This document shows, piece by piece, positions 17,262 through 28,304 of a stretch of DNA of 36,448 nucleotides (its first letter is position 1; each line of letters starts with the position of its first letter). The notes beneath the pieces are model-generated. The model did no database searches, was not told the DNA's origin, and was given only the letters and a program-made list of their open reading frames with translations. The position numbers were made by a program, and so were the translations under genes. The stretch lies in assembly GCF_002160895.1 (NCBI RefSeq), contig NZ_NFLL01000026.1, forward strand, positions 1 to 36,448, written 5' to 3'. The stretch comes from Faecalibacterium sp. An122 (GTDB lineage: Bacteria > Bacillota > Clostridia > Oscillospirales > Ruminococcaceae).

Positions 17262-17530
17262 TCACGCAAAGGTGATGTGCAGCGTCTTGCCCAGACAAGA
17301 CGCCATTTTTTGCAGAAACTCCAACGAAGGGTTGGCATTCCCGTTTTCAATGCGTGAGATGTTTGCTTGGTGCCCATCTTTTCAGCCAACTGTTTCTGAG
17401 TCAGTCCAACAGCCTTCCGACTGGCGATCGCTGCACGAATCACTTCGTACTGCGGTTCCAGGCGGTCATACTCTTCCTTTACTTCCGGGTTTTCTGCAAA
17501 TACCTCCTTTTTGTAATCGCTGTACCTCAT
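17262..17530 (-). pseudogene. XRE/HigA-like helix-turn-helix regulator, frameshifted
   Basis: The ATG at 17530 (with an AAAAGGAG-type ribosome-binding site) opens MRYSDYKKEVFAENPEVKEE, continuing to IASRKAVGLTQKQLAEKMG, the first half of an XRE helix-turn-helix. After GTKQ near 17366 the reading frame is lost. The rest of the domain, ISRIENGNANPSLEFLQKMA and GKTLHITFA with a stop at 17262, continues in another frame. Restoring 4 bases (one AAGC unit) would give GTKQANISRIE, the family's normal sequence. Such proteins are HigA-type antitoxins, but no toxin gene is seen upstream. A programmed frameshift is less likely. Confidence 0.8.
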
Positions 17531-17935
17531 CTGCACACTCCTTTTACAATCTTCTTTACTCCTATTAACTTTGGTATGAGATACGCTTTTATGAATTCCG
17601 ATGCTTGAAATCATCCATTCGGTTGGTTTGACAGATATATAAAGAAATGTAATTTTATTTAATCTCAACGAGAAACTCTCCTGCGGCAATCTTTAGACAA
17701 ACAGCTGCGGGAGAGTTTTTGCCTGTAAAGTCTTTTATTTCATGATATGATCATCGTATCATTTAGAGGCACATTATCTTGTCGGAAGAGGCATATTCTC
17801 TGCGTCTCACCGATCTTTCGGTATAAGGGAAGTGGATCAGCTGATTCGCGGTCAACATCTCCGTCAGAGCCGTTTGGAGGCTTTACTTTGCGGTTTGTTC
17901 CTCTGCCTCCAGCTCTTGCGAAATGTTTTTTCTTT
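17531..17935. other. Gene-free AT-richer gap with one hairpin
   Basis: No gene could be supported. AACTCTCCTGC and GCGGGAGAGTT at 17674-17718 form a hairpin followed by TTTTGCCTG on the plus strand, a possible terminator or repeat. The stretch 17770-17935 has short overlapping open frames on both strands, none with a family signature or convincing ribosome-binding site. Confidence 0.4.
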
Positions 17936-17987
17936 AAAACCAAAACAGCCGCCGCCCGGGACCCAAGCCTCGGACGGCGGTTGTTGT
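17936..17987 (-). terminator. Intrinsic terminator of spoIVA
   Basis: On the minus strand AACAACCGCCG pairs with CGGCGGCTGTT, followed by TTGGTTTT. It begins about 10 bases beyond the spoIVA stop codon. Confidence 0.75.
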
Positions 17988-17997
17988 TTATGTCTTT

Positions 17998-19479
17998 TTA
18001 CAGCAGGATGCAGATCAGCCCGGTGCAGCCCTCGTTGATGACCCGTTCCAGGGTCTCCTGCATCCGGGTGCGGGCCTCCTGGGGCATATGCAGCAGTTTG
18101 GCCTGGAGGCCTTCATTCACCAGCTCGTGGAGGCTCTTGCCAAAGATATTGGACTCCCAAATCTTCACCGGGTCCTCCTCAAAGCCGGACAGCAGGCTCT
18201 GGACCAGCTCCTCGCTCTGGCGCTCACTGCCCACAATGGGGCTGATTTCGGTGCGGATCTCTGCCCGCATCATGTGGATGGAAGGGGCGCTGGCTTCCAG
18301 GCGGACGCCGTACCGGCCGCCCTGGCGGATGATCTCGGGCTGTTCCAGCCGCAGCTCGTCGATGGAGGGCATCACGATGCCGTAGCCGGTGGCCTCCACC
18401 TGTTCGATGGCGCTGCGCAGCCGCTCGTATTCCTTTTTGGCGCGGGCCAGCTCGATGATGCAGGGCATCAGGCCCGCCTCATCGCCGATCTCCAGGCCCG
18501 TCTGCTCGCTGAGCACCTGATAGAACACGTCGGGCTTCAGCTCCACCGTCACCTTGACGCTGCCTTCGGCCAGGTCCATCCCCGTCACCGCCGACCGCTG
18601 CACCGCGTCGCAGGCCAGGGCCTCCCCGCCTTCGGCGGCCCGCAGGTCCTTCATACGGGCGATACTGGCCGCAAAGTTCAGCGCCGCCTCGTACACGCTG
18701 CTCTGAAGCCAATGGCCGCTGTCCAGCATGGTCACCCACCGGGGCATGGCAAAATCCAGTTCCCGCACCGGGAACTCATACAGCACCGACTCCAGAATCT
18801 TTTCCAGGGCGGCGGCGTCCAGGTCCACGCAGCTCACCGGCAGCACCGAACGGCCATACCGCTCCTCCATCCCTGCCGCCAGCTGGCGGGTCTCGGGAGA
18901 GTCGGGATGGGCACTGTTGAGCAAAATCACATAGGGTTTGCCCAGCTCCTCCAGTTCCCCGATCACCCGGGCCTCCGCCTTTTCGTAGCCGGCCCGGGGG
19001 ATATCGCTGATGGACCCGTCGGTGGTCACCACCACCCCGATGGTGGAATGGTCCCGGATCACCTTCTGGGTGCCGGTCTCGGCCGCCAGGTCGAAGGGTA
19101 CCGCCTCATCAAACCAGGGGCTCTTGACCATCCGGGGCTTTTCGTCCTCCTCGTGGCCCATGGCTCCCTCCACCATGTAGCCCACGCAGTCGATCAGCCG
19201 CACCCGGCATTCCCCGCCCCCTTCCAGCTGGAGGGGGACCGCCGTCTCCGGGATGAACTTGGGCTCGGTGGTCATGATGGTCCGGCCCGCCGCCGACTGG
19301 GGCAGTTCGTCCCGGGCCCGCGCCCGGGCCGCCGTATCCCCCAGGACCGGCAGCACCAGCTCCTCCATAAACTGTTTGATGAAGGTGCTCTTTCCGCTGC
19401 GCACCGGCCCTACCACGCCAATATAAATATCGCCGCCGGTCCGCTGGCCAATCTCCCGATACAGTACAGGATTCTCCAC
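17998..19479 (-). CDS. spoIVA: Stage IV sporulation protein A (spore coat ATPase)
   Basis: A 493-residue protein, the same size as B. subtilis SpoIVA. The N-terminus has a P-loop GPVRSGKST at residues 24-32, and the domain order is ATPase then middle and C-terminal domains. The GTG at 19479 is preceded by GAGGAGGAAGG. SpoIVA hydrolyses ATP to polymerise into the basement layer of the spore coat on the outer forespore membrane, where it is held by SpoVM. It lies 17 bp after the SPOCS-LysM gene and is probably co-transcribed with it. SpoVM itself is encoded about 2 kb upstream. The presence of this gene implies a sporulation programme, at least ancestrally. Confidence 0.97.
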   Translation of the reverse strand: MENPVLYREIGQRTGGDIYIGVVGPVRSGKSTFIKQFMEELVLPVLGDTAARARARDELPQSAAGRTIMTTEPKFIPETAVPLQLEGGGECRVRLIDCVGYMVEGAMGHEEDEKPRMVKSPWFDEAVPFDLAAETGTQKVIRDHSTIGVVVTTDGSISDIPRAGYEKAEARVIGELEELGKPYVILLNSAHPDSPETRQLAAGMEERYGRSVLPVSCVDLDAAALEKILESVLYEFPVRELDFAMPRWVTMLDSGHWLQSSVYEAALNFAASIARMKDLRAAEGGEALACDAVQRSAVTGMDLAEGSVKVTVELKPDVFYQVLSEQTGLEIGDEAGLMPCIIELARAKKEYERLRSAIEQVEATGYGIVMPSIDELRLEQPEIIRQGGRYGVRLEASAPSIHMMRAEIRTEISPIVGSERQSEELVQSLLSGFEEDPVKIWESNIFGKSLHELVNEGLQAKLLHMPQEARTRMQETLERVINEGCTGLICILL

Positions 19480-19496
19480 TGTGTACCTTCCTCCTC

Positions 19497-21011
19497 TCAG
19501 GCCCCGGGCACCAGCAGGCGGCGCGCCGCCGCCAGGGTGCGGGTGTCGGGTTCCAGGCCGTTGGCTTCCAGCATCTGGCCCGGCGATACATGGAACCGCC
19601 GCGCAATATCAAACAGTTCCTCCCCCGGCTGGGCGTAATACACCCGCAGGGAGATATCCGGGTCGGCGGGGGCCAGGAGGTCCCCGATCTCAATGCTGCT
19701 GACAAAGGGCCGGCTCTCCCGTCTCAGCACCGCCCCCTGGGCCCGGACGGTGACCGTGACTTCCAGGTTCCCGCCGGCACAGCCCGCCTGGACGTCCTGG
19801 GCCGACAGCCAGCACTCGGGAATCAGCTCCCCCGTCTCTTTCACCGGCAAGGGCAGCGTCAGCTCGGCCGACTTGTCGTAGCTGTCGATCTCATCCAGGC
19901 TGTTCTGGCCAAAGGCCGTCACCAGCACCCGGGCCGTCAGCACCGGGCCGTCCTCCCGCTGTTCCACCGCCGCCGGGCCAAAGGCCACAAAACAGGCCAG
20001 AAGCCGGGTGTTTTCATCCGGCAGCGGACCCGAACAGGTCACCGCCGCCGTGTCGTCCAGCTTGCAGGCCAGCTGTTCCGTCGTCAGGGGGGCCGACTCG
20101 CTGCGGACCTGGTACTGGGTGGAAAAGGCGTCGGTGACGCAGTTCAGCTCATAGGGACGCCAGGCCCGCAGGTGCAGCATGGAGGTGGCGGTGAGCTTGC
20201 CGGGGCTGCCGTCCTCCCCCTCCGCCACGGCAAACCCCACCGGCTCCACCGCGCACTGGCACAGGCAGTCCTCGGTGAGGCCCTCCACGTCCAGAATCTG
20301 ATTGAAGGGTATGGTGGCCGCCTGGCCCAGCAGCGCGGCGCTGCCTTTGGCCCGCCAGGCGCACTGGGCGTGGATTTCGCCCTTGACCACCGCTTTGCCG
20401 TTGAGAATCTTCATCTCCCCCACGACGGCGCTGCCCGACACGTCCAGGATCGCCGCGGGGGGCTGGTCAAAGACCACCGTCCCGTCGGCGGCCATCAGCT
20501 TGTCAAGCACCGCCGCCCGCTTTACCCCCCGCAGGGTGGCCTGGCGCTGCTGGATGCCGCAGTCCGCCAATGCCGTGACCGCCTCGGTGCTGCACTGGGT
20601 GGACACCGATGCCACCAGGCCATAGGCCCCCCGCACCTCGATGCGGCGGGGATTCACCGCCCGGCAGTTGATGTATTCGGTCTCCCCCTCCACCGACGCG
20701 TTCCAGGAGGTAAAACTGAAACTGGGCAGGTCCAGCGCCTTGTTGAAGGGGATCTTCTGCTCGGTCTGGCACAGTCCCGCCCCATCCTCCCCCTGATAGT
20801 AGACGGTACAGCGGATGTACCCCTCCAGCGTCAGCTTGCCCGGCTGCAGCTGCTTTTGCAGCACCACCGGCCGGGCAAAGCATTTCACAATCTTAAACAC
20901 CTGGGGCAGATAATCGGAGATGAGAATCTCCGTCTCCACCGGGATTTCCGCCTTGACGGTGCAGCACCCGCCGCCGGCGTAGAGAATATCACGGAATACC
21001 TTCAGTTCCAT
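19497..21011 (-). CDS. SPOCS (DUF3794) and LysM domain spore coat protein
   Basis: A 504-residue protein. The start ATG at 21011 has AGGAAAGGAG 9 bases upstream; the open frame continues upstream, but that extension is compositionally unlike protein. Three beta-rich SPOCS/DUF3794 modules are seen (about residues 30-170, 190-290 and 320-430). The first contains ILISDYLPQVFKIVKCFARP and the others contain IPFNQILDVEGL and SYDKSAELTLPLPV. The C-terminal LysM is at about 455-504 (VYYAQPGEELFDIARRFHVS). In clostridia such proteins are linked to coat or exosporium assembly. It is the first gene of the unit with spoIVA. Its exact role here is not known. Confidence 0.9.
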   Translation of the reverse strand: MELKVFRDILYAGGGCCTVKAEIPVETEILISDYLPQVFKIVKCFARPVVLQKQLQPGKLTLEGYIRCTVYYQGEDGAGLCQTEQKIPFNKALDLPSFSFTSWNASVEGETEYINCRAVNPRRIEVRGAYGLVASVSTQCSTEAVTALADCGIQQRQATLRGVKRAAVLDKLMAADGTVVFDQPPAAILDVSGSAVVGEMKILNGKAVVKGEIHAQCAWRAKGSAALLGQAATIPFNQILDVEGLTEDCLCQCAVEPVGFAVAEGEDGSPGKLTATSMLHLRAWRPYELNCVTDAFSTQYQVRSESAPLTTEQLACKLDDTAAVTCSGPLPDENTRLLACFVAFGPAAVEQREDGPVLTARVLVTAFGQNSLDEIDSYDKSAELTLPLPVKETGELIPECWLSAQDVQAGCAGGNLEVTVTVRAQGAVLRRESRPFVSSIEIGDLLAPADPDISLRVYYAQPGEELFDIARRFHVSPGQMLEANGLEPDTRTLAAARRLLVPGA

Positions 21012-21111
21012 GTTCACGGCGCTCCTTTCCTGTCCTTTGTACGGCGCATGGTTCATTGTATGCGGCGCAGCGTGGGACCAGAACCGACGCTTCCGCCCTA
21101 CCGTTACACAC

Positions 21112-21205
21112 ACTCTATGTCTTTTAGCTTTTGTTCGCTGCGCTAGGCCCAGAGGGGGAGGGAGGGGGTTTCGACTCCCGCTCCCTAGGTCCGGGTTGCC
21201 GTTAC
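21112..21205. repeat. Intergenic palindromic repeat, copy A
   Basis: GGGAGGGGG at 21160-21168 pairs with CCCGCTCCC at 21177-21185 with one mismatch, around TTTCGACT. The 30 bases from 21160 differ at a single base from copy B at 34340-34369, and similarity extends leftward through the CGCT-CGCT and CCAGAGGG parts. No gene is present. Confidence 0.75.
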
Positions 21206-21207
21206 CC

Positions 21208-21375
21208 AAATTTTCAGCGCGGGGCGCTGCCTGCGGCAGATACAGCCGAGGCGGAGCAGGGGCAGCGGTCTGCTTTTTGCGAGGGCGCGACGACGCCCGA
21301 AGCAAAAACAGGGCACCGCAACCCGGAGCAGTGCTCCAATTTTCACAAGGGCGCACCGCCGCCCGCCGGGAAAAT
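21208..21375. repeat. Cluster of nested hairpins in the gap upstream of the SPOCS-LysM gene
   Basis: Three dyads follow one another: TTTTTGC-GGGCG / CGCCC-GCAAAAA (21274-21308), GGAGCA / TGCTCC (21325-21337) and ATTTTC-GGGCG / CGCCC-GAAAAT (21339-21375). The first and third share the same plan, an A/T arm outside a GGGCG stem. AAATTTTC at 21208 and GGCAGATACAGCCGAG at 21235-21250 resemble pieces of the 34630-34689 element. No protein is supported here. Confidence 0.65.
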
Positions 21376-21426
21376 CGGCTAAGCACAAGAGGAAAACCTA
21401 GCACTAGTCCCGTTGAAAATACCAAC

Positions 21427-21459
21427 AGAAAACCCCCGCCTCTTTTGAAGAAGCGGGGG
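21427..21459 (-). terminator. Intrinsic terminator of spoVM
   Basis: On the minus strand CCCCCGC pairs with GCGGGGG (21433-21439 with 21453-21459), with partial extension of the stem into the loop, followed by TTTTCTGTTGG. It begins 6 bases after the spoVM stop. Confidence 0.85.
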
Positions 21460-21465
21460 CAAGGG

Positions 21466-21555
21466 TTAATTAGTTTCCTGGCCTTTCTTGATGCCGAACA
21501 GCATACGCAGAAGGCCGGCCAGGCACTTGGGGCTCTTGATGACGATAATCTGCAT
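21466..21555 (-). CDS. spoVM: Stage V sporulation protein M (SpoVM), 29 residues
   Basis: A 29-codon gene on the minus strand. Compared from memory with 26-residue B. subtilis SpoVM, these are identical in place without gaps: Met1, Ile6, Lys7, Pro9, Lys10, Leu12, Gly14, Arg17 and Gly21. Pro9, needed for curvature sensing, is kept. The protein is an amphipathic helix that marks the convex outer forespore membrane and anchors SpoIVA. It follows thiN as in the Bacillus order, has its own terminator, and has AGGCAGGGA upstream of the ATG. TATAAT at 21591-21596 could be a -10 box. It has three more residues at the C-terminus than the Bacillus protein. The hairpin-rich gap and the SPOCS-LysM gene separate it from spoIVA. 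Confidence 0.88.
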   Translation of the reverse strand: MQIIVIKSPKCLAGLLRMLFGIKKGQETN

Positions 21556-21628
21556 AGATGGTTCCCTGCCTTTCGATGGTGGTTTGCTCCATTATAGGCA
21601 GAAACGGCCCAAAATGTTCCGCCCCGGT

Positions 21629-22267
21629 TCAATCGGCGGCGGTTTCCACCACCACAAGGGCCCCCTTCTCCACCGAAAGGGTGATGCAGTCCGACCCGGG
21701 GGCGTACTCATTGCTGACCCCCAGAGGGTAGCTGGCGGTCAGCTGGGCCCCGGTCAGCTCATAGAAGGCACCCCGGATGGTGACGCCCTCGGCCTTCCCC
21801 TCCGCCGGGAACACCGACAGGTAGAAGTAATCCCCTTTGGGATAGGTCCGGGTCTGGCCGGGCAGCAGGTAGGTGACCCGGCTGCGCTCATCCTGCAATG
21901 TGGCCCGGACGCCCCGTTTTTCCAGGCCCAGGCCGGTGCAGAGGTTGGCCAGGGTGTGTTCCAGGCGCTTTCCCCCCAGACACCCCAGCATCAGCACCTC
22001 CCGGAACCCCTGCCGCGCCGCCAGCTGGGCGGCGTACTCGGTGTCGGTATCGTCCTTGACGTGGGGCAGCACCACCAGGTCCTCCCCTTCCGGCATATCG
22101 GGCCGGGGGGCCGAATCGAAGTCCCCCACCACGGCGTTGGGCCGCCGGCCCAGCACATCACAGCTGCGGTAGCCTGCGTCGCAGGCTATCAGGTAATCGT
22201 CGGGCCGCAGCAGCCCCGCCAATTCCGCCCCCACCGGGCAGGCCGACAATATCACACAGCGCGCCAT
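21629..22267 (-). CDS. thiN: Thiamine pyrophosphokinase
   Basis: A 212-residue protein. The ATG at 22267 has AAGGAGGG 10 bases upstream; a longer in-frame reading up to 22510 lies over the rsgA gene and is rejected. Motifs: LIACDAGYRSCDVLG, VVGDFDS with Asp49 and Asp51, KDDTDTEYA with Asp72, Asp73 and Asp75, and GCLGGKRLEHTLANL. The enzyme transfers pyrophosphate from ATP to thiamine, giving the cofactor TPP. It occupies the same place as in B. subtilis (after rsgA/cpgA and before spoVM), but rpe is absent between them. No TPP riboswitch was recognised upstream. Confidence 0.94.
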   Translation of the reverse strand: MARCVILSACPVGAELAGLLRPDDYLIACDAGYRSCDVLGRRPNAVVGDFDSAPRPDMPEGEDLVVLPHVKDDTDTEYAAQLAARQGFREVLMLGCLGGKRLEHTLANLCTGLGLEKRGVRATLQDERSRVTYLLPGQTRTYPKGDYFYLSVFPAEGKAEGVTIRGAFYELTGAQLTASYPLGVSNEYAPGSDCITLSVEKGALVVVETAAD

Positions 22268-22291
22268 AGGCAAAACGCCCTCCTTCGCTTG

Positions 22292-22332
22292 CAAAAGCGC
22301 CGCAGGGCATAGCCGAGCGGCGCTGGGTTTTG
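22292..22332 (-). terminator. Hairpin between rsgA and thiN, possible attenuator
   Basis: CAAAA-GCGCCGC (22292-22303) pairs with GCGGCGC plus TTTTG (22317-22332). On the minus strand the stem is followed by TTTTG, 6 bases after the rsgA stop and before the thiN ribosome-binding site. It could reduce read-through or simply be a member of the hairpin family with GGCATAGCCGAG in its loop. Confidence 0.5.
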
Positions 22333-22338
22333 ATGGGT

Positions 22339-23232
22339 TTACAGTTTGGGTTCCTGGCGGCGGGGCTGTTCCCAGTCCTTCACGTCCTTCACCTCGTCGT
22401 ACATGGCGCAATAGCTGTCGTACCGGGTTTGGGACAGTTTGCCTTCGGCCAGGGCCGCCCGCACCGCGCAGCCTTTCTCGCTGCGGTGGGAACAGCCGGT
22501 GAACTGGCACTGGCCCAGGTACGGCCCGAACTCGGGGAAGGCGTGTTCCAGGTTTTCCTTGGGGATAAAGCCCGCGCGGCCCGCCTCCAGGCTGGCAAAG
22601 CCCGGGGTATCGGCGATCCGGCCCCCAAAGGCCTCGAAGATGGTGACCTCACGGGTGGTATGGCGGCCGCGGCCCAGCTTCTGGCTGATGGCGGCGGTCT
22701 CCCGGCCCGCCTCGGGCAGCAGGGCGTTCAGCAGGGTGGACTTGCCCACCCCTGAGTTGCCGCAGAAGGCGCACAGCCGCCCGCTGATCCATTCCTTCAC
22801 CGCGTCCAGGCCCTCGCCGGTGGCGTAGTCGATGCGGATAAAGGGGATGGTGGACAGGGCATAGGCTTTCTCCAGAAAGTCCGCCTCCGCCAGGTCGCCC
22901 TTGGTGCAGACGATCACCGGCTGCACCCCTTTATCCACCGCGATGGCCGACAGTTTATCCAGCACCAGGGTGCTGGGGGAAGGCTGGGTGGTGCTGGCCA
23001 CCAGGAACAGCACATCCAGGTTGGCCACCGGAGGCCGGACAAAGACGTTCTTGCGGGTGGCGATCTCAGCGATCACCGCCGCGCCGTTCTCCACCGCCAG
23101 GGTCACCTGATCCCCGGCCACCGGGCTGCGCTTTTGTTTGCGGAAGATGCCGCGGGCCTTGCACTCCACCACCCCGTCCGGGGTTTTCACGTAGTAGAAC
23201 CCGCCGATCCCCTTGATGATATATCCGTCCAT
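22339..23232 (-). CDS. rsgA: Ribosome small subunit-dependent GTPase A
   Basis: A 297-residue circularly permuted GTPase. After an N-terminal OB fold (about residues 1-65) the motifs come in the order G4 TKGD (110-113), G1 GNSGVGKST (158-166) and G3 DTPG (208-211). A zinc site follows with Cys242, Cys247, His249 and Cys255. RsgA checks late assembly of the 30S ribosomal subunit and leaves when GTP is hydrolysed. It is just downstream of prkC (12 bp). In B. subtilis the homologue CpgA is a substrate of PrkC, so the pairing has functional sense. Confidence 0.97.
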   Translation of the reverse strand: MDGYIIKGIGGFYYVKTPDGVVECKARGIFRKQKRSPVAGDQVTLAVENGAAVIAEIATRKNVFVRPPVANLDVLFLVASTTQPSPSTLVLDKLSAIAVDKGVQPVIVCTKGDLAEADFLEKAYALSTIPFIRIDYATGEGLDAVKEWISGRLCAFCGNSGVGKSTLLNALLPEAGRETAAISQKLGRGRHTTREVTIFEAFGGRIADTPGFASLEAGRAGFIPKENLEHAFPEFGPYLGQCQFTGCSHRSEKGCAVRAALAEGKLSQTRYDSYCAMYDEVKDVKDWEQPRRQEPKL

Positions 23233-23244
23233 CCGCTGCCCCCG

Positions 23245-25140
23245 TTAAAACCAGTCCCAGGGCCAGATGAGGCTGGGGTCCGAGGAACTGGCCCCGCCGT
23301 CGGTGCTGCCCGACGAGGAGCTGCCCGAGGAGGAGGACGAAGAGGACGAGGAGCCGCCGCCCCACAGGTCGCCCCACCAGTCGCCGCCGCCCTCCGAGCT
23401 GGAAGGCTCTTCCGGCACTTCGGGGGCCGGCTCGGGACCGGCCGACACGGTGACGTTGATGCGGGTGTTGTATTTGACGGTGGAGCCGGGCGCGGTCTCC
23501 TGGGCGATGACGGTGCCCACCGGCTGGTCGCTGTAGGCCTGGGTCTGGCTGCCCAGGGTCAGGCGGTTCTGGACCAGGAGGGTCCGGGCGTCGTTCACCG
23601 ACAGGCCCACCACCGAGGGCACGCTGGTGGTGGTGCTGACCTGCTGGCGGCTGACGTACACCACCACGGTGCTGCCCGCCGGGACGGTGGTGCCGGCCGC
23701 GGGGTCGGTGCGGATGACCGCACCCACCGCCACCGAGGGCTCCACGTTCTGGACCACCAGCACCGACAGGCCGGTATCCCGCAGCAGCTGCTCGGCGTCG
23801 GCCTGGACGTAGTTGGTGGTATCGGGGATGGTGACGTACTGGGTGCCCAGGCTCACCGTCAGGGTGACGGTCTGGCCCTCGCGGACCACACGGCCCGCCG
23901 CCGGGGACTGTTTATAGATATAGCCCTCGCCGTAGGTGCTGCTGTATTCCTCCACCCAGTTGATGTTGATTTGCCCGCTGCCCACCTGGGTGCTGGCTTC
24001 GGCCTCGGTGCGGGTCATCCCCACATAGTCCTCCAGGACGATGTCCGCCTTCTGGTCCGAGATGAAGTTGCTGTTGTTGTGCAGAATCATCAGGCACAGC
24101 ACAGCGCACGCCACCGCGAAGGCCACCGTGATCCCCAGCAGGGACGGGATGAACACCGAGCGTTTTTTCCGCTTTTTGGGCGTCCGGGTGCCGGCGCCGC
24201 CGGCGCGCTGGTCTTTTTTCTGGCTCATTGTCTGTTTGACCACCTTTGCAGGTGCTTCCTCCGTGATATACTTATAGGCAAAGACCACATCCGGGTCCCG
24301 CACATACTGCCCCAGGGCGTCCAGCATCTCGCTGGCGCTGGCGTACCGGTTGGCCGGCAGCTTGGCCATGGCCTTTTCGGTGATTTCCACCAGGGCCCGG
24401 GGGGTGTCGGGGGCCAGCTGGGCCAGCGGCCGCGGGGTGTCGGTGATCTGCTTGAGCGCCACCTTCACCGCCTCGTCGGCGTCAAAGGGCAGGTGCCCCG
24501 ACAGCATCTCGTACATCATGACGCCCACCGAGTAGATATCGCTCTGGGGGCCGGTGACCTCGCCGCGGGCCTGCTCGGGACTGATATAGTGTACGCTGCC
24601 CATGGCCTTGCCGGCCAGCAGCTGGTTCTCGGCCCGGGAAATCCGCGCGATGCCGAAATCCATCATCCGCAGCTGGCCATTGTCCAGCAGCATGATGTTC
24701 TGGGGCTTGATGTCCCGGTGCACCACGCCGTTGCGGTGGGCGTGGTCCAGGGCCTGCAGAATCTGGGAGATGAAGTGGACCGTCTCCCGGCTGGTGAGCT
24801 TGCCCCCGCGCTCGTTGAGGTATTCCCGCAGGGTCATGCCGTTGACGTACTCCATCACGATATACTGGAGCCGGTCGGTGACCGACACGTCGTACACCTT
24901 GACGATATTGGGGTGATGCAGCAGGGAGATGGCCTTGGACTCGTTCTTAAAACGATTCACCAGGTCCGGGTCGTGCATGAACTCGGCCCGCAGCACCTTC
25001 ACCGCCACCACCGTCCCCGCCGGGACGGGGCCGTTCTGGCCCACCGCCACCGCCTTATAGACGTTGGCCATGCCGCCGGCGCCGATCAGCTCCCGCACCT
25101 CATAGAGGCCGTCCAGCCTGCGGCCGATCAGATTATCCAT
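23245..25140 (-). CDS. prkC: PASTA-domain Ser/Thr protein kinase PrkC
   Basis: A 631-residue membrane kinase. The cytoplasmic kinase domain (about residues 12-270) has GAGGMANVY, the VAVKVLR lysine, HRDIKPQN and DFGIAR. A Lys-rich stretch precedes one transmembrane helix (about 323-350, SVFIPSLLGITVAFAVACAV). Outside are three PASTA repeats (about 365-565) that should sense muropeptides or lipid II. The C-terminus is unusual: an acidic-proline linker, then a Gly/Trp segment and a long serine-rich tail ending IWPWDWF. PrkC phosphorylates translation, division and wall proteins and controls spore germination in B. subtilis. It overlaps prpC by 8 bp, so kinase and phosphatase are coupled. Confidence 0.97.
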   Translation of the reverse strand: MDNLIGRRLDGLYEVRELIGAGGMANVYKAVAVGQNGPVPAGTVVAVKVLRAEFMHDPDLVNRFKNESKAISLLHHPNIVKVYDVSVTDRLQYIVMEYVNGMTLREYLNERGGKLTSRETVHFISQILQALDHAHRNGVVHRDIKPQNIMLLDNGQLRMMDFGIARISRAENQLLAGKAMGSVHYISPEQARGEVTGPQSDIYSVGVMMYEMLSGHLPFDADEAVKVALKQITDTPRPLAQLAPDTPRALVEITEKAMAKLPANRYASASEMLDALGQYVRDPDVVFAYKYITEEAPAKVVKQTMSQKKDQRAGGAGTRTPKKRKKRSVFIPSLLGITVAFAVACAVLCLMILHNNSNFISDQKADIVLEDYVGMTRTEAEASTQVGSGQININWVEEYSSTYGEGYIYKQSPAAGRVVREGQTVTLTVSLGTQYVTIPDTTNYVQADAEQLLRDTGLSVLVVQNVEPSVAVGAVIRTDPAAGTTVPAGSTVVVYVSRQQVSTTTSVPSVVGLSVNDARTLLVQNRLTLGSQTQAYSDQPVGTVIAQETAPGSTVKYNTRINVTVSAGPEPAPEVPEEPSSSEGGGDWWGDLWGGGSSSSSSSSSGSSSSGSTDGGASSSDPSLIWPWDWF

Positions 25141-25882
25141 GCTGCACCTCCACCGGCTCCACGCCCAGCAGCAGGGCGGTGATGTTGTCCTGGCCGCCGG
25201 CGGCGTTGGCCGCCTCGATCAGCCGGTCGGGCAGGTCATAAAAGGGCACCCGGCCCAGCAGCGCCTCCATCTGTTCGGTGGTGAGGGCGTTGGTCAGGCC
25301 GTCCGAGCACAGCAGCAGCATATCCCCTTTCAGCACCACCACCGAGGTGAAATCGGGGGTCAGGCGGTAGTCCACACCCAAAGCCCGGGTGATGATGTTT
25401 TTCTGGGGGTGATGCTCGGCCTCCTCGGGGGTGATGGTGCCGCAGTCCACCAGCTCCTGGACATAGGAGTGGTCGTGGGTCAGCTGATGCAGCCGCCCCG
25501 CATGGAACAGGTACGCCCGGGAATCCCCCGCGTGGCAGATATAGGCCCGGCCGTCCCGCACCAGGGCGCAGACCACCGTGGTGCCCATGCCGGCCAGGGA
25601 TTCCTCCTGGGCCGACTTCTGAAAGACATAGTGGTTGGCGTGTTCCAGGGCCTGGGCCAGGAACTGTTCCTCCCCGCCCCGGCCGCAATGGCTGTACTGG
25701 TCCTGAAAGGACCGCTCGATCACATCACAGGCTCCATGGGAGGCCTCCCGGCCGCCCCGGGCCCCGCCCATGCCGTCGCACACCAGGCCCCAGGCCGCCC
25801 CGCCGGGCAGTTCCCCTGCCCGGTAGTCGTCCTGGTTTTCCCGCCGGATGCGGCCCACATCGGTTTTCCCTGCAAGTTTCAT
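25133..25882 (-). CDS. prpC: PP2C-type Ser/Thr protein phosphatase PrpC
   Basis: A 249-residue metal-dependent phosphatase. The PP2C motifs are seen: TDVGRIRRENQDD at the N-terminus, LVCDGMGGARGG (metal-binding Asp at about residue 36), GMGTTVVCALV, ICHAGDSRAYL and LLCSDGLTNAL, with GGQDNITALLL near the end. It removes phosphates placed by PrkC, whose gene starts inside its last codons. It follows rlmN by 13 bp. Confidence 0.96.
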   Translation of the reverse strand: MKLAGKTDVGRIRRENQDDYRAGELPGGAAWGLVCDGMGGARGGREASHGACDVIERSFQDQYSHCGRGGEEQFLAQALEHANHYVFQKSAQEESLAGMGTTVVCALVRDGRAYICHAGDSRAYLFHAGRLHQLTHDHSYVQELVDCGTITPEEAEHHPQKNIITRALGVDYRLTPDFTSVVVLKGDMLLLCSDGLTNALTTEQMEALLGRVPFYDLPDRLIEAANAAGGQDNITALLLGVEPVEVQHG

Positions 25883-25895
25883 AGGCTTCTCCTTT

Positions 25896-26945
25896 TTACT
25901 CCGTCTTGGCGGCGGCGTCCATTTCTTCCCGCCGCAGCTGGCCGCAGGCGGCGCTGATCTCGCTGCCCAGCCGGCGGCGGACGGTGGCGTTGACCCCCAG
26001 GGCCGTCAGTTTGGCCTGGAAGCGGCGGACGTTCTCGGCGTCGGTGGCCGAATAGGGGCTGCCGTCCACCGGGTTGATGGGGATCAGGTTCACATGGGCG
26101 CCCATCCCCCGGATCAGGCCCGCCAGCTCTTTGGCGCAGGCGTCGCTGTCGTTGACCCCCCGCACCATGGAATATTCAAAGCTGACCCGCCGGCCGGTGG
26201 TGTCCTGGTAGCGGCGGACCGCATCCATCAGCTGGGCCACCGGATAGGCGTTGTTCACCGGCATCATGCTGCTGCGGATGGCGTCGTTGGGGGCATGGAG
26301 GGAGATGGACAAGGTCAGCTGCAGCTTGCGCTGGGCCAGACGGTCAATCTGGGGCACAATGCCGCAGGTGGACAGGCTGATATTCCGCATCCCGATGTTG
26401 ACGCCGTCGGGGGACGAAATGATGGTCAAAAACTTCATCACCTCGTCGAAGTTGTCCAGCGGCTCGCCGATGCCCATGAGGACGATATGGGAGATGCGCT
26501 CCCCGATGTCCTTCTGGGCGGTATAGATCTCGGAGCAGATCTCGCCGGCCTCCAGGTTGCGGACCCGGCCCGCCTGGGTGGAGGCGCAGAACCGGCAGCC
26601 CATCCGGCAGCCCACCTGGGTGGACACGCAGACGGTGCAGCCGTAATGATACCGCATCACCACCGTCTCGATGCAGTTGCCGTCGGCCATCCGCAGCAGG
26701 TATTTCACGGTGCCGTCCTTGGCCTCCTGGCGGCGCTCGATCTGGGGCGCGGCGATATAGAACCCCTGGTCCAGCTGGGCGATGAGGGCCTTGGGCTGGT
26801 CGGTCATGGCGGCAAAGTCGGTCACCAGCTTCTGATGCAGCCAGTGAAAAATCTGTTTTGCACGGAAGGCCGGCTGGCCCATGGCTTTCATCTCGGCGGC
26901 CAGTTCCTCGATGGTGAGGGATGAGATACAGCGTTTGTTTTCCAT
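25896..26945 (-). CDS. rlmN: 23S rRNA (adenine-2503-C2)-methyltransferase RlmN
   Basis: A 349-residue radical SAM enzyme. C113-x3-C117-x2-C120 (GCRMGCRFCAST) binds the 4Fe-4S cluster, and GIGEPLDNFDEV is the SAM-binding GEP motif. The family also uses two other cysteines in catalysis; Cys332-region ACGQL near the C-terminus fits one. RlmN methylates A2503 of 23S rRNA and A37 of some tRNAs. A resistance Cfr enzyme is unlikely given length and position in the conserved operon. Confidence 0.96.
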   Translation of the reverse strand: MENKRCISSLTIEELAAEMKAMGQPAFRAKQIFHWLHQKLVTDFAAMTDQPKALIAQLDQGFYIAAPQIERRQEAKDGTVKYLLRMADGNCIETVVMRYHYGCTVCVSTQVGCRMGCRFCASTQAGRVRNLEAGEICSEIYTAQKDIGERISHIVLMGIGEPLDNFDEVMKFLTIISSPDGVNIGMRNISLSTCGIVPQIDRLAQRKLQLTLSISLHAPNDAIRSSMMPVNNAYPVAQLMDAVRRYQDTTGRRVSFEYSMVRGVNDSDACAKELAGLIRGMGAHVNLIPINPVDGSPYSATDAENVRRFQAKLTALGVNATVRRRLGSEISAACGQLRREEMDAAAKTE

Positions 26946-26981: not shown

Positions 26982-28304
26982 TTATTCAGCGCGCTGCATC
27001 ACACAGATGAAAAATCCGTCCATCCCGGTGCGGCCCGGCACCGACAACAGGCCGCAGGGCCCCTGTTCCATGCCGGCCGGCAGAGCCACATCCGGCTCCA
27101 CCACCCGGAAGTCGGGCCGCCGGGCCAGAAAGGCCCGGACCTGGTCCTGGTTCTCCTCGGGGTGGATGGTACAGGTGGAGTAGACCAGCCGTCCCCCCGG
27201 CTTCAGGTAGCCGGCGGCGCAGTCCAGGATGGCGCGCTGGGTGTCCAGCAGCTCCCGGCGGCGGGCCTCGTCCAGGGTTTTATAGCGGATATCGGGCTTT
27301 TTGCCCAGAATGCCCAGACCGCTGCAGGGCACATCGGCCAGCACGCGGTCGGCGGCGGGAAAGGCGGGGTTGGGCACGGCGGCGTCGTTCACCGCCGTCT
27401 CGATGCAGCCCAGGCCCATCCGCCGGGCGGCGGTCTGGATCAGGCCCACCCGCTGAGGGGTGCGGTCGCAGCTGATGAGGCGGCCCTTATCCTGCATTTC
27501 CTGGGCCAGGGCCAGGGTTTTGCCGCCGGGGGCGGCGCACAGGTCGATGACCGTCTCCCCCGGCTTTGCACCCAGGCAGAGGGCCGCCAGCTGGCTGGCC
27601 TGGCCCTCCACATGGAAGTCCCCCCGCTGGAACCATTCGGTGTCGGCGGGGCTGCCGGCAAAGTCGGCCAGCAGGCTCCCCGGCACGAGGCCGGGTTTGG
27701 CCTCCACCCCGGCCTTGCTCAAGGCGTCGGCCAGGGCGGCGGGGGTGGTGTGCAGCGGATTGACCCGCAGGGCGGTCTTGCCCCCGTCCGCCGGGCTGGA
27801 CAGGATGGTCAGGGCTTCTTCCGGGTAGTATTGGCGCAGGAACGCGGCCACATCCCGGCCCGCCGACCCCAGCACCATCAGCCGCTCCACCTCGTCGGCA
27901 AAGACGGCGGTATCCAGGTCATAGGCGCAGGCTTTGCGCAGGACGGCATTGGCCAGGCCGGCGGCGCTGGACTTGCCGAAGGCGCGCACCAGCTTGACTG
28001 ACTCATTGACGGCGGCCGGGACGGGCACCTGCATATAGCGGGCCTGGGCCAGGCCGCTGCGCAGGATGGCCCGCACCGGCGGGTCCAGTTTGGCCAGGCC
28101 CTTGGGCAGGAACCGGCTCAAAATATAGTCCAGGGTGGCCTGGCGCTCCAGGGTGGTGTAAAAGATGGCGCTGGCAAAGGCCCGGTCCCGGCCCTGCAGG
28201 CCCGAGCGGCCCAGCTCGGCATCCAGCACCAGGTTGGAGTAGCCCCCCTGTTCCTGATGGACGAGGGCGGCCGCCGCAGCGGCCCGGGGCCCCGCCGGCC
28301 TCAA
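26982..28304 (-). CDS. rsmB: 16S rRNA (cytosine-967-C5)-methyltransferase RsmB
   Basis: A 440-residue protein: an N-terminal NusB-like RNA-binding domain (about 1-140) and a C-terminal methyltransferase. The SAM site is VIDLCAAPGGKTLALA, the catalytic cysteines are in DVPCSGLGILGKKPDIRY and YSTCTIHPEENQ. The start is a TTG at 28304 that overlaps the fmt stop (TTGA), so translation is probably coupled to fmt. The ribosome-binding site is weak. It methylates C967 in helix 31 of 16S rRNA. Confidence 0.95.
   Translation of the reverse strand: MRPAGPRAAAAAALVHQEQGGYSNLVLDAELGRSGLQGRDRAFASAIFYTTLERQATLDYILSRFLPKGLAKLDPPVRAILRSGLAQARYMQVPVPAAVNESVKLVRAFGKSSAAGLANAVLRKACAYDLDTAVFADEVERLMVLGSAGRDVAAFLRQYYPEEALTILSSPADGGKTALRVNPLHTTPAALADALSKAGVEAKPGLVPGSLLADFAGSPADTEWFQRGDFHVEGQASQLAALCLGAKPGETVIDLCAAPGGKTLALAQEMQDKGRLISCDRTPQRVGLIQTAARRMGLGCIETAVNDAAVPNPAFPAADRVLADVPCSGLGILGKKPDIRYKTLDEARRRELLDTQRAILDCAAGYLKPGGRLVYSTCTIHPEENQDQVRAFLARRPDFRVVEPDVALPAGMEQGPCGLLSVPGRTGMDGFFICVMQRAE

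Follow-up and report, generated by a model that had tools for sequence, protein, structure and literature searches.

Does a gut genus whose best-known member is reputed not to form spores still run a coat-building sporulation programme? This testable question is raised by spoVM, which encodes a small peptide known to anchor the spore coat, and by its partner genes in Faecalibacterium sp. An122. We analysed a stretch of 36,448 nucleotides from this organism (contig NZ_NFLL01000026.1), referred to throughout as the window, in which the original prediction had assigned a 29-codon frame on the minus strand (21466-21555) to spoVM. The frame is real and not a product of chance, and we regard it as nearly certain that it is the spoVM gene, with a 29-residue product that most likely functions as in B. 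subtilis.

Identity of the 29-codon frame

The product, which starts with ATG, scores 35.6 bits (E 6.5e-9) against the NCBIfam model for SpoVM, NF033436, above the curated cut-off of 31, and a six-frame scan of the organism's own genome with this model returns a single match (33.6 bits, E 2.1e-7). In the PDB, 2MVH (stage V sporulation protein M of B. subtilis) is the sole match, and residues 1-22 align to it without gaps and with nine identities (M1, I6, K7, P9, K10, L12, G14, R17 and G21); the nine gap-free identities of the original prediction, including Pro9 and Gly21, are thus recovered when counted against this structure. The pairwise E-value to 2MVH is weak by itself (0.77), and a Pfam search with the 29-residue product gives no match. 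The size is that of the family, a single protein of about 26 residues, with 29 residues in the window and 24-30 across the genus copies. Together, the score above the cut-off, the ungapped identities and the single match in the genome identify the frame as spoVM.

In B. subtilis SpoVM, Pro9 and Ile6 are key residues, and Ile6 is needed for SpoIVA binding. Both are present in the window product; among the 30 complete copies of the genus, Pro9 is found in all, while position 6 is occupied by Ile in 24, Leu in four and Val in two. Pro9 is also the sole fully conserved residue in a published alignment of SpoVM from Bacilli and Clostridia, according to its figure legend (PMC5607322). The predicted SpoVM helix appears moderately amphipathic, with a hydrophobic moment over residues 9-22 of 0.48 compared with a shuffle mean of 0.27, a value attained by 2.7% of shuffles; the test is a modest one, in which the corresponding stretch of 2MVH itself lies at 9.3% and two genus copies lie at 5.2% and 0.4%.

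Automatic gene callers had been expected to miss spoVM, which holds in part. The window copy is recognised by the NCBIfam model, against that expectation, whereas in favour of it Pfam gives no match and 12 of the 31 genus genomes fall below the NF033436 cut-off in the genome scan (19 lie above it). Eleven of these 12 copies are complete and one is cut by a contig end, so that the cut-off excludes intact copies, 11 among the 31 of the genus. At E ≤ 10, the model matches all 31 genus genomes, 30 of them at E ≤ 0.0034 and the copy cut by the contig end (G017) at 0.012. Weak matches alone mean little, because six of 14 control genomes also match at E ≤ 10, one of them over the cut-off. Of 197 genomes sampled from the order, 83 have a match at E ≤ 0.001, and the score exceeds the cut-off in 36; in the 114 without such a match, the gene may be absent or may have been overlooked by a model of only 26 positions. 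The window spoVM is an ordinary addition to the known SpoVM family, and calling it fills a small annotation gap.

Table 1. Features of the spoVM region in the window, in minus-strand reading order, and the two sigK halves elsewhere in the same genome
Feature	Coordinates	Strand	Basis
rsmB-type rRNA methyltransferase	26982..28304	minus	PF01189, PF01029
rlmN-type radical SAM methyltransferase	25896..26945	minus	PF04055, PF21016
PP2C phosphatase (prpC type)	25133..25882	minus	PF13672, 73.9 bits
PASTA Ser/Thr kinase (prkC type)	23245..25140	minus	NF033483, 503 bits (cut-off 450)
rsgA, ribosome-dependent GTPase	22339..23232	minus	TIGR00157, 195.1 bits (cut-off 100)
thiN, thiamine diphosphokinase, 212 aa from inner ATG	21629..22267	minus	TIGR01378, 122.7 bits (cut-off 76.4)
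Conserved promoter-like pair GAACATTT-N12-GCCTATAATG, upstream of spoVM	21590..21619	minus	Alignment of 30 genus copies
Ribosome-binding stretch GAAAGGCAGGG	21564..21574	minus	Read from sequence
spoVM, 29 codons plus stop	21466..21555	minus	NF033436 score, PDB 2MVH alignment, pN/pS
Stem-loop, intrinsic-terminator-like, 13 pairs then TTTT	21432..21460	minus	Terminator scan, fold energy
GCATACAATG, putative sigma-E type -10 element before SipL-like gene	21054..21063	minus	Sigma-E consensus score
SipL-like protein, 504 aa, SPOCS (two stretches) and C-terminal LysM	19497..21011	minus	PF12673, 79.4 bits; PF01476, 25.5 bits
spoIVA, 493 aa	17998..19479	minus	TIGR02836, 666.9 bits (cut-off 459.9); three Pfam SpoIVA domains
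sigK halves (own genome, contig C34)	L167:722-1162, L166:1200-1553	minus	SigK models, one half covering profile positions 2-119 and the other 109-222

The neighbourhood of spoVM

Along the minus strand, the genes read rsmB, rlmN, PP2C phosphatase, PASTA kinase, rsgA, thiN and spoVM, followed by the stem-loop with its T-run, the SipL-like gene and spoIVA (Table 1). The placement after thiN is confirmed by the TIGR01378 gene, which ends 73 nt upstream of the spoVM start, and it is a fixed one: in all 30 genus copies that have context, thiN immediately precedes spoVM on the same strand. The neighbouring spoIVA is also there, as the second gene downstream; the SipL-like gene in between was absent from the original prediction, and no NCBIfam model names its product (best score 12.6 bits). 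Between spoVM and the SipL-like gene, the window has a long spacer (21012-21431): measured from the spoVM start, the distance is 545 nt, compared with 195-275 nt in the remaining linked members of the genus.

The comparison of gene order covered 31 members of the genus and 25 further relatives, of which some matched weakly (E up to 0.15); the window proteins served as queries, a procedure that diverged neighbours may escape. Sixty relatives were searched, and G047, G051 and G055 (no match) as well as G053 and G059 (weak matches, E 0.39 and 0.71) were excluded. A SipL-like gene starts within 550 nt downstream of spoVM in 20 of the 31 genus genomes (truncated at a contig end in one) and is followed by spoIVA in 14 (one cut). 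G005 and G012 carry the SipL-like gene 2.3-3.5 kb from spoVM, and in nine genus genomes neither gene was detected in the stretch covered around spoVM. The idea that some genus genomes have spoVM without spoIVA was refuted, as SpoIVA (TIGR02836) scores over the cut-off in 31 of 31. Among the named loci, where the findings rest on 20 of 80, thiN, spoVM, the SipL-like gene and spoIVA are consecutive in Gemmiger (L079, L080), Fournierella (L081) and an Oscillospiraceae bacterium (L085), and two of eight Faecalibacterium loci (L075, L076) have the SipL-like gene and spoIVA with no spoVM nearby. Furthermore, one or both of these genes lie no more than 3.5 kb from spoVM in eight of the 25 family and order relatives (G034, G036, G041, G042, G048, G049, G050 and G054), and three of these eight have them on the opposite strand. 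The spoVM-sipL-spoIVA clustering extends past the genus and is not universal. Within the listings and open-access main-text passages covered by our literature search, we found no treatment of SpoVM in Faecalibacterium or of this cluster.

The signals claimed on either side of the frame were both recovered. A ribosome-binding site precedes it, and GAAAGG occurs within 30 nt upstream of spoVM in 30 of 30 genus copies. The terminator-like stem-loop begins 5 nt past the stop codon, with a fold energy, flanks included, of -23.7 kcal/mol; the terminator scan overall is not above shuffles (four sites vs a mean of 5.2), and the spoVM stem is the longest of the four. By a criterion of our own, used without a shuffled control, a stem-loop of -16 kcal/mol or lower before a T-run lies within 140 nt downstream in 28 of 31 genus copies, the exceptions being G005, G021 and G029; the stem is not immediately followed by the T-run in G010 and G030.

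Upstream of spoVM, the promoter-like pair GAACATTT-N12-GCCTATAATG is conserved in the genus, and its reading as a sigma-E promoter is equivocal. Scored with the sigma-E consensus of B. subtilis as given in PMC3416734, the pair agrees at 5/8 and 6/7 fixed positions, 11 of 15 in all. The best score averages 10.5 over the 30 genus upstream regions, compared with 8.5 in shuffles, and 12 of 15 positions are attained by three of the 30 copies (0.25% of shuffles), several copies scoring best in another register. The strict sigma-E pattern with CATA occurs in none of the 30 regions, and TATAAT upstream of spoVM could alternatively be a sigma-A -10 element; a sigma-70 scan of 17500-23500 gave no promoter, with 0.8 expected. 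The -10 candidate of the SipL-like gene, GCATACAATG, is cleaner than the element upstream of spoVM: this upstream region agrees with the B. subtilis sigma-E consensus at 7/7 fixed -10 and 4/8 fixed -35 positions, and a count by eye places GCATANANT before the SipL-like gene in 15 of the 18 genomes aligned. Over the window, Rfam at gathering thresholds returned nothing and ARAGORN no tRNA.

Three genes for the coat basement layer, spoVM, the SipL-like gene and spoIVA, thus stand side by side. Gene identity, protein constraint (see below), neighbourhood and the presence of partner genes are all shown here, and by analogy with the family a course of events can be proposed. SpoVM would be made in the mother cell and, as an amphipathic helix kinked at Pro9, would lie in the outer forespore membrane, where it would recruit SpoIVA; SpoIVA would in turn polymerise and, with the SipL-like protein, form the basement layer of the coat.

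Within SpoIVA, the glycine seventh from the end, which we take to be the counterpart of B. subtilis Gly486 (assuming a B. subtilis protein of 492 residues), occurs in each of the 16 C-termini listed. Gly486 of B. subtilis SpoIVA is tied to SpoVM binding, and the matching residue of C. difficile is Asn (PMC5607322), whereas that of the window SpoIVA appears to be Gly. This difference weighs against a role modelled on C. difficile, in which SpoVM would aid the SipL-like protein and SpoIVA and be dispensable for coat attachment. In favour of such a role, C. difficile SpoVM is largely dispensable even though it binds SpoIVA (PMC5607322), and a SipL-like protein is encoded in the window. We consider a dispensable SpoVM possible, if on balance unlikely, and prefer a function as in B. 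subtilis.

Constraint on spoVM and the sporulation genes of the genus

That the frame is open is no argument by itself, because, of the five other frames across the 24 codons compared, three are mostly open as well, with stops in only 2, 1 and 3 of the 30 copies. Selection acts on spoVM at the protein level. The frame is complete in 30 genus genomes, always with ATG; in the remaining one, G017, a contig end truncates it, and this copy was left out of the codon test for this reason. Over 24 codons of 27 distinct sequences, pN is 0.164 and pS 0.577, and all 351 (non-independent) pairs show pN below pS. Sites that vary number 16 of 24 at the first codon position, 8 at the second and 23 at the third. 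Val5, Ser8, Pro9, Gly14, Leu16, Phe20 and Gly21 are identical in 30 of 30 copies. The original prediction had looked to close relatives for conservation of the frame over that of the DNA and named stops, frameshifts or an unrelated gene at this position as evidence against it; constraint is seen at the protein level, no stop or frameshift falls within the first 24 codons of the 30 complete copies, and the position after thiN is kept as described above. Internal stops suspected in four genus matches were rejected, as they are ordinary ends after residue 24-26.

F. prausnitzii, the best-known species of the genus, is described as non-spore-forming in PMC6295017 and called a spore-former, in passing, in one review (PMC8953710). 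Other sporulation genes were searched in the genus, where several of the genomes that lack a match are incomplete. Spo0A scores over the cut-off in 30 of 31 genus genomes; a SigE-like factor is found in 27 of 31, at 301-329 bits and below the family cut-off of 348.6, and SpoVAD is matched below the cut-off in 27 of 31. The alpha/beta SASP model (PF00269) has no match in the 31 genus genomes (G000-G030), compared with 27 of 30 relatives outside the genus. GPR scores over the cut-off in 26 of 31 genus genomes, at 148-169 bits vs 222-337 in the relatives that match (26 of 30), and these lowered scores are possibly due to relaxed constraint after SASP loss. The limitation of the GPR match to profile positions 2-229 of 306 was dismissed as a special feature, since the best stretch of many relatives ends near 236. 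Epulopiscium was dropped as a precedent for SASP loss, as SASPs are retained there (PMC3416734).

On contig C34 of the organism's own genome, sigK is split into halves that lie some 19 kb from each other on the same strand (Table 1), and a serine-recombinase frame (PF00239, PF07508, PF13408) lies beside the 3′ half; the arrangement is that of a skin-like intervening element. Split-looking sigK pairs are similarly listed for G005, G007 and G020.

Either the genus sporulates in a modified way, or its SASPs have diverged past the model, or sporulation was lost recently. A selected coat-basement module kept with sporulation regulators, in a genus that has lost the alpha/beta SASPs, might lead to coated forespores that differ from classic resistant spores, such as transmission cells with a short life. 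We put this forward as a speculation that we consider improbable; if it were true, the label "non-spore-forming" would mask a modified sporulation programme. Less probable still is that spoVM is genuine but a relic, in a lineage that no longer sporulates and is losing the gene. The reported non-spore-forming nature of F. prausnitzii (PMC6295017), the missing SASP genes and the low GPR scores would all fit a relic, but the frame is complete in every uncut copy with pN far below pS, and SpoIVA, Spo0A and, below the cut-off, SpoVAD are retained as given above, which makes decay of the gene improbable. Finally, an open frame arisen by chance, or a small amphipathic peptide unrelated to SpoVM, to which the very short length, the weak PDB E-value, the lack of a Pfam match and the openness of other frames might point, is ruled out for practical purposes by the family score, with matches in all 31 genus genomes, the protein-level constraint and the fixed linkage to thiN jointly.

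Comparison with known SpoVM systems

Within the family as modelled by NF033436 (SpoVM_broad), the window copy lies over the cut-off, and many copies of the genus and order lie near or below it. In the text of a survey of gut Firmicutes, which names Faecalibacterium in its reference list only, sporulation-specific late genes are for the most part missing in former spore-formers (PMC8340488), and the pattern of the genus differs from this. A cluster that includes Faecalibacterium was already noted to keep spoIIIA operon genes, with phenotype unknown (PMC7924749).

The closest parallel is B. subtilis SpoVM (2MVH), with which the window protein shares Ile6, Pro9 and Gly21 among its identities. It differs in length (26 residues in B. 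subtilis) and at positions 2 and 8, which are Lys and Leu in B. subtilis and Gln and Ser in the window. In B. subtilis, too, spoVM presumably lies downstream of thiN, in a gene order that we take to be that of the window up to spoVM, except for rpe; unlike in B. subtilis, the SipL-like gene and spoIVA come next downstream in the window. C. difficile SpoVM belongs to the same family and acts beside SpoIVA and SipL (PMC5607322), as would the window protein, and it differs in its dispensability and in the Asn of its SpoIVA partner, where the window SpoIVA appears to resemble that of B. subtilis.
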